Assembly: GCF_020622065.1 (NCBI RefSeq)
Contig: NZ_JAHRYQ010000001.1
Coordinates: 1,736,001 to 1,800,000, forward strand
Direction of reading: 5' to 3'
From: Geothrix sp.
GTDB lineage: Bacteria > Acidobacteriota > Holophagae > Holophagales > Holophagaceae
DNA length: 64,000 nt
The position numbers and the translations under genes were made by a program. This document shows positions 876 through 24,151 of this stretch, in pieces. Each line of letters opens with the position of its first letter. The first letter of the stretch is position 1. The notes below the pieces were generated by a model, which made no database searches, was not told the DNA's origin, and worked only from the letters and a program-made list of their open reading frames with translations.

Positions 876-2216
876 ATGGCCTTTGATGTCGTCATGCCCC
901 AGATGGGCGAGAGCATTGCGGAAGCCACCGTATTGAAGTGGCACAAGAAGGCCGGTGATGTGATCGCCAAGGACGAGACGCTCTACGAGATCAGCACCGA
1001 CAAGGTGGACGCGGAGATCCCCGCCCCCGCCGCCGGCACCCTGCTGGAGATCCTCGTGGAAGTCAACGCCACGGTTCCCGTGGGCACTGTGGTGGCCCGC
1101 ATCGGCGCCGCCTCTGAGAAGCCCGCGGGCGCCGCCGCTCCAACTGCTTCCGCGCCCGTGGCTGCCCCGGTTTCTGCCGCCGCCACGGCGCCCCTGGCCG
1201 ACGAAGATGACAACAGCCTCGAGGGCCGCCTCCGGACCAAGAGCAGCCCCCTCGTCCGCGAAATGGCCAAGCAGCATGGCGTGGATCTCGCCCGGATCCA
1301 GGGCACGGGCCAAGCCGGGCGCGTCACCAAGGAGGACATGGAAGCGCATCTGGCCAAGGGGCCCACAGCGGTCTCCCCGGCCCCCTCCTCACCCGCGACC
1401 ATCGCGCCGGTCCTGCCCGCGGTTCACGATCCTTCCGCGCCCACGCTGGGCATCAGCCCCGCCCTCTCGGTGGCCCCCGCCCCCGCCATGCCGGCCTTCG
1501 CCGCGGGTGAGCGGGTGAAGGTCGAGCCCATGAGCCGCATGCGCAAGATCATCGCCGACAACATGGTGGCCAGCCGCCGCACCTCGGCCCACGCCTACAC
1601 GATCTTCGAGATCGACATGACCCATGTGGCCCAGCTGCGCAACAAGCACAAGAAGGCCTTCGAGGCCCAGTTCGGCACGAAGCTCAGCTTCATGCCGTTC
1701 GTGATGATGGCGGCCTGCAAAGCGCTGCGCGCCTATCCCATCGCCAACGCCTCCGTGGACGGCGACAACATCGTCTACAAGCAGGACATCAACCTCGGCA
1801 TCGCCGTGAGCCTGGACTGGGGCCTCATCGTCCCCGTGGTGAAGAACGCCGACATGATGAACCTGGGCGGCCTGGCCCGCAGCCTCAACGATCTGGCCGA
1901 GCGCGCCCGCACCAAGCAGCTCAAGCCCGATGAGATCAGCGGCGGCACCTTCACCATCACCAATCCGGGCGTCTACGGCGACACCTTCGGCCTGCCCATC
2001 ATCAACCAGCCCCAGGCGGCCATCCAGGGGGTGGGCGCCATCGTGAAGCGCCCCGTGGTCATCACCGGCCCTGACGGCACCGACTTCATCGCCATCCGCC
2101 AGATGATGTTCAGCAGCCTCGGCTTCGACCACCGGATCGTCGACGGAGCCACCGCCGACCTGTTCATGGCCTTCGCCAAAAAGGAGCTGGAGAACTCCAC
2201 CTTCGGGTTGGAATAG
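876..2216 (+). CDS. Dihydrolipoamide acyltransferase (E2 of a 2-oxoacid dehydrogenase complex)
   Basis: This is a 446-residue E2 component that moves an acyl group from a lipoyl arm to CoA in a pyruvate, 2-oxoglutarate or branched-chain 2-oxoacid dehydrogenase. Domains in order: an N-terminal lipoyl domain (about 1-75) with the lipoylated Lys43 in STDKVDAE, an Ala/Pro-rich linker, a peripheral E3-binding domain (about 125-160, SSPLVREMAKQHGVDL), a second linker, and the catalytic domain from about 215 with the active-site motif HRIVDG (His419, Asp423). The start is supported by GGAG five bases upstream of the ATG. No E1 or E3 gene is nearby, so the substrate cannot be assigned from context. 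The last 12 codons are repeated downstream (see repeats at 2180 and 2296). Confidence 0.93.
   Translation: MAFDVVMPQMGESIAEATVLKWHKKAGDVIAKDETLYEISTDKVDAEIPAPAAGTLLEILVEVNATVPVGTVVARIGAASEKPAGAAAPTASAPVAAPVSAAATAPLADEDDNSLEGRLRTKSSPLVREMAKQHGVDLARIQGTGQAGRVTKEDMEAHLAKGPTAVSPAPSSPATIAPVLPAVHDPSAPTLGISPALSVAPAPAMPAFAAGERVKVEPMSRMRKIIADNMVASRRTSAHAYTIFEIDMTHVAQLRNKHKKAFEAQFGTKLSFMPFVMMAACKALRAYPIANASVDGDNIVYKQDINLGIAVSLDWGLIVPVVKNADMMNLGGLARSLNDLAERARTKQLKPDEISGGTFTITNPGVYGDTFGLPIINQPQAAIQGVGAIVKRPVVITGPDGTDFIAIRQMMFSSLGFDHRIVDGATADLFMAFAKKELENSTFGLE
2180..2216 (+). repeat. 37-bp direct repeat, copy 1 (3' end of the E2 gene)
   Basis: These 37 bases are the last 12 codons and stop of the E2 gene plus one base. 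An identical copy lies at 2296-2332. The identity ends exactly at the last base of the stop codon in both copies. Confidence 0.97.
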
Positions 2217-2253
2217 CGGCCGAGCGATCCACCCATTAGGACCAGGAGAGATG

Positions 2254-2294
2254 TCTCGCGTATCGCCCCCGCTTTTTTGGGGGCGATACCGAGA
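2254..2294. other. Long stem-loop between the two repeat copies
   Basis: Bases 2260-2270 and 2279-2289 form a perfect 11-bp inverted repeat (GTATCGCCCCC and its complement) around the loop GCTTTTTT. The stem continues outward for 5 bp (2254-2258 with 2290-2294) past a single bulged C. The right arm ends one base before the second repeat copy. There is no T-run after the stem, so it is not a classical terminator on the plus strand. Confidence 0.8.
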
Positions 2295-2295
2295 G

Positions 2296-2332
2296 AAAGG
2301 AGCTGGAGAACTCCACCTTCGGGTTGGAATAG
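2296..2332 (+). repeat. 37-bp direct repeat, copy 2 (duplicated E2 gene end)
   Basis: Exact second copy of 2180-2216, including the TAG stop at 2330-2332. It has no long reading frame of its own. The copies are separated by 79 bases that carry the stem-loop. Confidence 0.97.
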
Positions 2333-22490: not shown

Positions 22491-23801
22491 ATGACCGATC
22501 TCGCGGCTCTTTACCTCACCCACATCGCCGAGCGCCAGCGCACCACCGCCGAGGCCCTGGCCGAGACGGGCTTCGATGCCCTGGTGATTTCCAGCGGGAA
22601 GGTCTACACGCACTTCGCCGACGATCAGGACGCCCCCTTCCACCCCGTTCCCCACTTCGCCCACTGGTGTCCCGTGGCGGGACCGCACCACCTCCTCGTG
22701 ATTCGTCCCGGCCAGAAGCCACGGCTCATCCGCTACGCTCCCGAGGATTTCTGGTACGAGCAGGCCCCCCTGGGGAATCCCTTCTGGGCGCCGGCCTTCG
22801 AGCTCCAAGAGGCGGGCACAGTCGACGAGGTCTGGAAGCTCCTGGGAAACCCCACCCGGGCGGCCTATATCGGCAATGAGACCGACCGCGCGGAAGCGGC
22901 CGGCCTCGAGGCCAATCCGGCCGGACTCACGGCCCGTCTGGACTGGCACCGCACCACCAAGTCAAGCTATGAGGTCCAGTGCATCGAGGAGGCCACGGTG
23001 CTCGCCGCACGGGGCCACCTGGCCGCCAAGGCCGCCTTCCTGGCCGGAGCCAGCGAGCTCGAGATCCACCACGCGTATGTCCAGGCCGTGGGCATCGTGG
23101 ATCAGGAGCTGCCCTATGGCAGCATCGTGGCCCTCAACGAGAAGGGCGCCACGCTCCACTACGAGGGCAAGCGCACCCTGAAGAACGGCTTCGTCATGCT
23201 CATCGACGCCGGCGCCCAGGTCCGCGGCTATGCCTCCGACATCACCCGCACCGTGGCCGCACCCCACTGCGACGGCCGCTTCGCGGCCCTGGTGGACGGC
23301 ATGGAGAGGATCGAGCTCCAGCTCTGCGACCTGGTGAAGCCGGGGCTGCCCTACGGCGACCTGCATCATCAGGGGCATCTTGCCATCGCGGGTCTGCTGA
23401 AGGATCACGGCCTCCTGAACGCGAGCCCCGAAGAGGCCGTGGAGAAAGGCTACAGCCGCCCCTTCTTCCCCCACGGCCTGGGCCATCACCTGGGCATCCA
23501 GGTGCACGATGTGGCCGGGCGGCAGGGTGGACCGGACGGCACCCTCGCGCCTCCGCCAGCCCAGCACCCCACCCTGCGCACCACCCGTACCATCGATGAG
23601 GGGCAGGTCTTCACCGTGGAACCCGGCCTCTACTTCATTCCCATGTTGCTCCGTCCCTTCCGCGCGGGGGAGGACCGGGCGAAGTTCAACTGGACGCTCA
23701 TCGATGAGCTCACCCCCTGCGGCGGGATCCGCATCGAGGACAACCTGCTGGTGACTCCCGGCGGACATCGCAACCTCACCCGGCCGCACCTGCCCAACTG
23801 A
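22491..23801 (+). CDS. M24-family Xaa-Pro dipeptidase (PepQ-like)
   Basis: A 436-residue cytoplasmic prolidase-type metallopeptidase that cleaves Xaa-Pro dipeptides. The N-terminal creatinase-like domain is followed by a pita-bread domain with metal ligands in LIDAGAQVRGYASDITRTV, FFPHGLGHHLGIQVHD, FTVEPGLYFI and GGIRIEDNLL. Length fits PepQ (about 440). The last 23 codons and stop are repeated downstream (23888-23958). Confidence 0.92.
   Translation: MTDLAALYLTHIAERQRTTAEALAETGFDALVISSGKVYTHFADDQDAPFHPVPHFAHWCPVAGPHHLLVIRPGQKPRLIRYAPEDFWYEQAPLGNPFWAPAFELQEAGTVDEVWKLLGNPTRAAYIGNETDRAEAAGLEANPAGLTARLDWHRTTKSSYEVQCIEEATVLAARGHLAAKAAFLAGASELEIHHAYVQAVGIVDQELPYGSIVALNEKGATLHYEGKRTLKNGFVMLIDAGAQVRGYASDITRTVAAPHCDGRFAALVDGMERIELQLCDLVKPGLPYGDLHHQGHLAIAGLLKDHGLLNASPEEAVEKGYSRPFFPHGLGHHLGIQVHDVAGRQGGPDGTLAPPPAQHPTLRTTRTIDEGQVFTVEPGLYFIPMLLRPFRAGEDRAKFNWTLIDELTPCGGIRIEDNLLVTPGGHRNLTRPHLPN
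23731..23801 (+). repeat. 71-bp direct repeat, copy 1 (3' end of the M24 peptidase gene)
   Basis: The last 23 codons and TGA of the peptidase gene plus two bases. An identical copy lies at 23888-23958. As in the E2 case, identity stops exactly at the last base of the stop codon. Confidence 0.97.
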
Positions 23802-24151
23802 GCTGCGGATCCGGACTACCCCCCGATCGCACAGCGCCCCGCGCTGTGCTCCCACTCAGCCTCCGGCTTCGCGGAGGGGGCCCCGTTGCATCGAGGACAA
23901 CCTGCTGGTGACTCCCGGCGGACATCGCAACCTCACCCGGCCGCACCTGCCCAACTGATCGGGAACCTCCACCCGCCGATCACCGGGACGGATAAAAACG
24001 AGCTCACCTTCGCCAACCGTCCGTCAACAGGGCAGTTCCTGTGGCTTCGATTCCGCAGTTCTGCCTTGTGGCCCGGCCTGCCTTCGGGTCTGATGGGAAG
24101 ACTCCGCCCTTCCATTTCTGGCCCCTCCACCCCGTTTCGAGGAGCGTCTTC
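23802..24151. other. 350-base intergenic region with hairpins and a duplicated gene end
   Basis: It holds two strong stem-loops (23829-23849 and 23860-23877), then the second copy of the peptidase gene end (23888-23958), then about 190 bases in which I see no gene or clear site until the GAGGAG ribosome site of the gene at 24152. The first stem is GCACAGCGC paired with its complement around CCC; the second is CCTCCG/CGGAGG around GCTTCG. Confidence 0.8.
23888..23958 (+). repeat. 71-bp direct repeat, copy 2 (duplicated peptidase gene end)
   Basis: Exact copy of 23731-23801, including the TGA stop. The 86 bases between the copies carry two hairpins. It has no ribosome site or start and is unlikely to be translated alone. 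Confidence 0.97.

Follow-up and report, generated by a model that had tools for sequence, protein, structure and literature searches.

The doubled 3′ end of a pepQ-like gene in a 64,000-nt stretch of a Geothrix genome (hereafter, the window) is one example of a pattern widespread in one family of soil and sediment bacteria, in which a short folded element, here called S, lies between two copies of the end of its host gene. Such an arrangement suggests a tiny mobile element that leaves the host gene intact. Short palindromic repeats are common in bacterial genomes, and for the most part there is no explanation of how they enter genes harmlessly; here the survival of the gene can be read from the insertion product, in which the gene end is rebuilt beside the element. 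In the reading that we prefer, to which we give a probability of roughly one half, S is a non-autonomous mobile element that duplicates target DNA when it inserts and leaves the gene functional.

Doubled gene ends in the window

The two copies of the pepQ-like gene end (Table 1) are identical at 71/71 nt, which rules out chance, and are separated by a gap of 86 bp (157 nt from start to start). The first copy, R1, terminates on the TGA codon (23799-23801) of the 436-aa reading frame, and the repeat comprises 23 codons, the stop included, plus two bases on the 5′ side. A sister repeat in the window, exact over 37 nt, ends on the TAG of a gene for the acyltransferase (E2) component of a 2-oxoacid dehydrogenase. 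The preliminary description had reported both repeats and had taken them for one kind of arrangement, and the sequences bear this out, with further cases in the same genome and in many relatives. In the same genome, we listed 11 exact repeat pairs when scanning 464 kb of the genome (the window and 20 stretches of 20 kb, ~14% of the total) for direct pairs of at least 20 nt lying within 500 bp of each other; only the two window cases coincide with the stop of a long frame at offset 0. Seven other local direct-repeat pairs (20-40 nt, spacing 257-499 bp) are found at ~5.2-14.2 kb of one of these stretches (L017, G000:C1:1576001-1596000), with no tie to long-frame stops, and another stretch (L019, 880-1020) contains two identical 40-nt copies in direct orientation, 61 bp apart and not at a stop. 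The additional own-genome cases that the preliminary description had called for are a deletion scar at recR (see below) and two candidates at gene 5′ ends: at mnmG, two copies exact over 40 nt enclose a weak S-like stretch (30.7 bits), and at the biotin carboxylase gene accC, two copies (18 nt exact, 36/38 by eye) enclose another one (28.6 bits).

Table 1. Coordinates of the two doubled gene ends within the window.
Feature	Position	Strand	Basis
Host gene, Xaa-Pro dipeptidase-like (pepQ-like)	22491..23801	+	ORF list; Pfam Peptidase_M24 135.9 bits, PepQ_N 119.2 bits
R1, functional gene end finishing on TGA	23731..23801	+	exact repeat
X, 11 bp separating gene end from S	23802..23812	+	S core starts at 23813 (family comparison, covariance model match)
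S, structured repeat element, three-way junction	23813..23887	+	covariance model 91.4 bits (own genome); 40-copy alignment
R2, outer gene-end copy, adjoining the right end of S	23888..23958	+	exact repeat
Case 1 R1, end of 2-oxoacid dehydrogenase acyltransferase (E2) gene	2180..2216	+	exact repeat; Pfam 2-oxoacid_dh 259.6 bits
Case 1 X	2217..2247	+	read from locus comparison
Case 1 S1, structured element, strong hairpin	2248..2295	+	fold z -3.65 for 2217-2295
Case 1 R2, outer copy adjoining S1	2296..2332	+	exact repeat

The S element and its sites

The 86-bp spacer between the pepQ-like copies, which has one full match in its own genome, contains a hairpin (GCACAGCGC/GCGCTGTGC) and a second, weaker one. 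Comparison among sites delimits a conserved core of ~75 nt preceded by site-specific DNA, which at the pepQ-like gene is the 11-bp stretch X, reading TGCGGATC(C/T) in the window and in three relatives at the same site. On sequence evidence, this core is one copy of a dispersed repeat, S, whose 40 aligned copies measure 70-85 nt and have the conserved ends GGACTAC and CCCCGT. The consensus fold obtained with RNAalifold is a three-way junction, with an outer stem P1 (CCCC(S)/(S)GGGG), a long hairpin and a second hairpin, and at least one compensatory change occurs in 12 of its 20 predicted pairs. The claim of structure therefore derives from this covariation among relatives and not from the single spacer, whose fold barely beats those of shuffled sequences (z -1.28; 18 of 200 shuffles equal or better). 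The preliminary description had proposed looking for a core common to the spacers, and none emerged between the two in the window.

S appears to be confined to one family, Geothrix and other Holophagaceae, among the genomes surveyed. A DNA search with the spacer (E≤0.01) found matches in 44 of 47 genomes of the genus; the covariance model, run over the class with stricter filters, detected S in 62 of the 93 genomes (at most 33 matches in any one), namely 47/47 in the genus, 15/30 in the rest of the family and 0/16 outside it. An exact-pattern scan of named genomes yielded 45 contigs, in 43 of which the model confirmed S; all 43 are titled Geothrix, Holophagaceae or Acidobacteria, and the other two (L268, Cellulomonas; L277, Phycisphaerales), where the model finds nothing, were dropped as chance pattern matches. 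Against Rfam 15, the window had no match over the gathering score and positions 23700-24000 gave only chance-level ones below threshold. Exact matches to a 19-nt S pattern were absent from the IMG/VR viral contigs, degenerate copies being able to escape such a pattern. In another genus, the S hairpin CACAGTCCACTGGACTGTG is nearly identical at unrelated genes (L281, L287, L246, L259, L276, L288, L289 and L245), as if S copies had been homogenised or had recently spread there.

We collected 164 distinct S copies from 134 loci. In 133 of them, a direct repeat of the left-hand sequence (alignment score of at least 18) begins no more than 3 nt from the right end of S, a number that retains a few groups (L168, L339 and L367) in which pieces of S or unassigned DNA, rather than recognised gene ends, are repeated. 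When left and right flanks were paired across different site groups as a control, only 15 of 1441 pairs had such a repeat. Repeat length in these 133 copies ranges from 21 to 221 nt (median 64). The 31 uncounted copies include members of arrays, subtype-E loci with an offset and loci with short repeats just below threshold (L342, L345 and L348), and S copies with no adjoining repeat also occur (L149, L245 and L248, for instance). At L149 (G046:C1:2803364-2803442), S lies within an apparent ORF6N/KilA-N gene devoid of a flanking repeat, where reading continues across S, yet out of frame.

The sites fall into 45 groups, sorted by reading with the help of longest frames and Pfam: 27 sit at the 3′ ends of genes, 13 sit at 5′ ends and 5 are of other kinds, among them the start of a tRNA-Arg gene. 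Pfam supports the gene to the left of S in 34 of the 45 groups, and these hosts are unrelated housekeeping genes. They include recR, miaB-type, pepQ, thioesterase, mannose-6-phosphate isomerase (C-terminal type), GIY-YIG, Fe-superoxide dismutase, GT9, alpha/beta hydrolase, AAA_assoc_C, XerD-type integrase, histidine kinase, RidA-type, FtsX/MacB, FtsK, EF-Tu-type GTPase, S9 peptidase, YggS-type, glutaredoxin, QueE-type radical SAM, DinG-type helicase, ribosomal protein S18, XPB-type helicase, enoyl-CoA hydratase, SDR, thioredoxin, ABC ATPase, CDP-alcohol phosphatidyltransferase and universal stress protein genes. In nearly all groups the gene body lies to the left of S and the outer copy, R2, abuts its right end; an exception is the group L152/L155/L164, with a reversed S subtype. 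In the GIY-YIG gene (L075, L073, L081 and L090), the functional copy has an N-terminal extension of ~16 residues that begins right at S, and the outer copy retains a short native start in L073 and L075.

The proposal that the repeats are aimed at stop codons or at gene 3′ ends did not survive this comparison. The stop codon is not the target, because 13 of the 45 groups are at 5′ ends and because the 57 repeats at 3′ ends, placed relative to the stop of the longest frame, are spread around it: 6 end exactly on the stop and 20 within 3 nt of it, 13 fall short and 24 run past. That the window repeats end on the stop exemplifies the usual situation, in which similarity holds over the coding sequence and is lost in the non-coding DNA beyond it. 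What stands of the site-directed integration at gene 3′ ends put forward in the preliminary description is the resemblance to an attachment-site duplication with a restored gene, but not its specificity for stops or 3′ ends.

The acyltransferase case belongs to another element, S1, whose spacer has matches in 17 of the 47 genomes of the genus. The order R - X - S1 - R recurs at 13 E2-type loci with alignment scores of 13.5 to 43 (L099 and L107 being weak); S1 also occurs at genes other than E2 (L106, L108, L109 and L112) and, at L110, with no repeat. As far as their sequences tell, S and S1 are two unrelated structured families with the same geometry, in which we saw no common sequence by reading. 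A third palindromic element is found at the miaB start codon in three genomes (L177, L178 and L181, in G001, G024 and G014, respectively), with a ~19-nt repeat that reads GGATGTGGAACTTCATCGC in G024 and G014.

Gain, loss and the origin of the duplication

That S has been gained or lost is evident from empty sites, from a deletion scar and from tandem arrays. Second copies of the recR end are present in 6 of 44 genomes; among the 30 recR loci that we read, five contain S and one, in the Geothrix genome of the window (G000), a scar in which a GGCC microhomology marks the junction of R1 and part of X with the final bases of R2. In G005, recR R2 and the DNA downstream of it correspond to the empty-site sequence of the relatives G017 and G045. 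Likewise, 12 of 29 readable miaB loci contain S, 3 the different palindromic element and 14 neither. More than one S is present in 27 of the 134 loci, as in L080, with the order R S R S R S R. Different genera have S at the same point in miaB (L281 and L287) and recR (L279). At these two genes X is unlike both the downstream DNA and the X found elsewhere, and the X of miaB is similar across two genera.

The outer copy follows the gene of its own genome. Over its first 30 nt, R2 differs from the R1 of the same genome by 4.1% of positions, compared with 9.6% after permutation, and none of 5000 permutations gave so low a value (67 copies in 14 groups, each with at least three single-S loci). At the pepQ site of G008, S matches the window copy at 96% identity (84 nt) and the outer copy is identical over 48 nt to the G008 gene end, not to that of the window. 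Mismatch between R1 and R2 is nevertheless uneven, amounting to 3-5% in the 40 nt beside S and 7-16% farther out (from 12 sites whose repeats have a long coding part, with manually entered coding lengths). The codon differences, 104 synonymous to 92 non-synonymous overall (64:36 at 3′ sites, 40:56 at 5′ sites; pepQ 11:6, AAA_assoc_C 18:4, miaB 16:18), lead to no firm conclusion because the frame votes were split in several groups and two counts conflict for L162. Repeat-head distances at miaB (137, 140, 146, 221 and 224) are 2 mod 3 in 19 of 19 values and also keep one frame at the histidine kinase, GT9, pepQ and XerD sites. We considered translation of S through the repeats as a general rule and discarded it, since the frame is lost at five site types (mannose-6-phosphate isomerase, AAA_assoc_C, YebC-like, thioesterase and QueE). 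At several miaB loci (L072, L281 and others), an apparent ORF runs from the start of the outer copy through S and X and seems to end on a TGA overlapping the miaB start, an overlap that looks like translational coupling.

In our preferred reading, S and, separately, S1 would be short non-autonomous mobile elements with a conserved fold. Insertion near a gene boundary would duplicate the stretch from the insertion point within the gene to or past that boundary (~20-220 nt), and the product would be gene body - R1 - X - S - R2 - native flank, where R1 completes the gene and R2 and its flank are the former gene end. The duplication would thus arise from the insertion itself, presumably with the help of an enzyme. 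Later recombination between repeats would delete S cleanly or build tandem arrays, (R X S)n R, from the unit, and probably aids the movement of alleles between species at the same site. As the simplest account, insertion with target duplication followed by recombination would explain why the genes are intact, why empty sites are clean and where the arrays and the scar come from. Several observations speak against it. The recombinase or RAYT that the preliminary description had postulated was not found in our searches for RAYT-type and reverse-transcriptase partners; known DNA transposases make target duplications of fixed length, whereas that of S varies from 21 to 221 nt; reuse of the same point across genera implies either a strong site preference or old insertions held alike by conversion; X at recR and miaB is unaccounted for; in nearly all groups it is the right end of S that adjoins the outer copy, a bias that plain target duplication does not predict; and there are the S copies devoid of an adjoining repeat.

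A different origin, possible though unlikely in our judgement, is that [R - X - S], as a circle or a fragment, moves into the same gene end elsewhere by site-specific or homologous recombination, carrying the gene end as its attachment or homology sequence as integrative elements do at conserved genes. That the sites coincide between species and between genera, with a common X and S at each site and native DNA downstream, fits this, and a carrier with a gene-end homology arm explains the same-point use across genera better than simple insertion does. Direct recombination between repeats would free such a circle, arrays exist, and in G043 the recR R1 and R2 differ solely by synonymous changes near the stop. 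However, a Campbell-type crossover predicts a donor head and a native tail in R2, with heads mismatching as much as tails, while the heads match clearly better, and 150 bp is too small for an integrase gene. The same recurrence could reflect old insertions passed on by vertical descent, with gene conversion keeping R1 and R2 alike, S homogenised within each genome and patchiness due to deletion between repeats, as the similarity of the miaB X in two genera, the genus-specific hairpin over many sites, the clean empty sites and the scar would allow. This is doubtful, as conversion should spare neither end of the repeat and only the S-side end is matched; repeats of 30-70 nt are, moreover, poor substrates for gene conversion. 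The mostly synonymous differences at pepQ and AAA_assoc_C are also unlike those of a long-dead copy, although those at miaB are not so biased and several frames are uncertain.

It is improbable that the repeat is a by-product of replication, with forks stalling at the S palindrome and a template switch into the gene recopying its end. The similar arrangement of two unrelated palindromic families and of the third element at miaB would suit such an error, as would an outer repeat that continues through X into a truncated S in L153, L147, L156 and L346, but in 133 of 164 copies the breakpoint falls at the right end of S, and native DNA, not X and S, follows R2 at recR and miaB. Mobilisation of S as a REP-like repeat by a RAYT transposase is extremely improbable: S is indeed short, structured, dispersed, near gene ends and at times arrayed, but it measures ~75 nt with a three-way junction, and the Y1 transposase domain (PF01797) is present in only 5 of 47 genomes of the genus; G000, G017 and G005, with 2, 24 and 28 S matches, respectively, lack it. 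Homing by reverse transcription with target priming was attractive because the right end of S and the head of the repeat are so precise; the reverse transcriptase domain (PF00078) was detected in 15 of 47 genomes and not in G000, G044, G043, G017, G046 or G055. Both enzymes occur in too few genomes to be general partners, and we rejected them as such.

More speculatively, S may be a minimal integrative element, a folded unit of ~75 nt aimed by the gene-end copy on its right end and rebuilding the gene on entry, an idea that we regard as rather unlikely. The attached gene-end copy would serve as guide, primer site or homology arm towards the same gene end in other genomes. Since at least two unrelated folds share this strategy in one family, such an element would imply an undescribed host or mobile enzyme that recognises the arrangement and not the sequence. 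The better match of R1 and R2 beside S than farther out favours a guide-RNA role for R2, which we keep only within this speculative scheme because the matched length varies by site, unlike that of a guide. If the outer copy does aim the element, this would be a new targeting principle. With ~45 site groups in one bacterial family, and with cultured Geothrix species having both filled and empty alleles, the gain, loss and transfer of S can be tested directly.

Comparison with known systems

Integrative elements such as phages, ICEs and islands integrate at gene ends by means of site-specific recombinases. Like them, S is flanked by two gene-end copies, the gene-side copy keeps the gene whole and conserved genes are used; direct repeats, one of which completes the host gene, are seen in the window and when filled and empty recR and miaB sites are compared. 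Unlike them, the S insert is only ~75-150 bp, gene-free, found at 5′ ends too and bordered by repeats of very variable length, and no integrase is encoded in the 75-bp element or the 86-bp spacer. Rickettsia palindromic elements and other bacterial MITEs are, like S, small, non-autonomous, folded and sometimes translated in frame. MITEs have terminal inverted repeats and short target duplications, whereas the ends of S, GGACTAC and CCCCGT, are not mutual inverted repeats and its long duplications are locus-specific and neither short nor fixed. Diversity-generating retroelements also comprise a gene end followed by a hairpin and a further copy, but the window copies are exact, with no adenine-specific differences, and the own genome has no detectable reverse transcriptase (PF00078).

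Casposons and CRISPR adaptation, with their Cas1 integrases (PMC9939771), resemble S in an integration that duplicates a target stretch at gene ends and in R-S-R arrays; in contrast, the insert is constant in S and it is the repeat that varies by site. In the open-licence literature that we searched, we found no such elements described for Geothrix or Holophagaceae and no gene-end duplication described around palindromic repeats. Among the closest counterparts are the REP, GTAG- and CGTC-tagged repeats, short palindromic sequences dispersed near or inside coding regions, which according to PMC3733652 measure 20-40 bp and have a tag at one end, those of the CGTC type likewise having no associated transposase. 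S differs from them in its length (70-85 nt among copies), its three stems forming a three-way junction instead of a tagged palindrome, the absence of Y1 transposase from G000 and a gene-end duplication that has no counterpart in that text, in which the string "duplicat" does not occur. Dispersed palindromic repeats near genes were already known (PMC3733652); the regular duplication of the host gene end around such an element was not met with in the literature searched.
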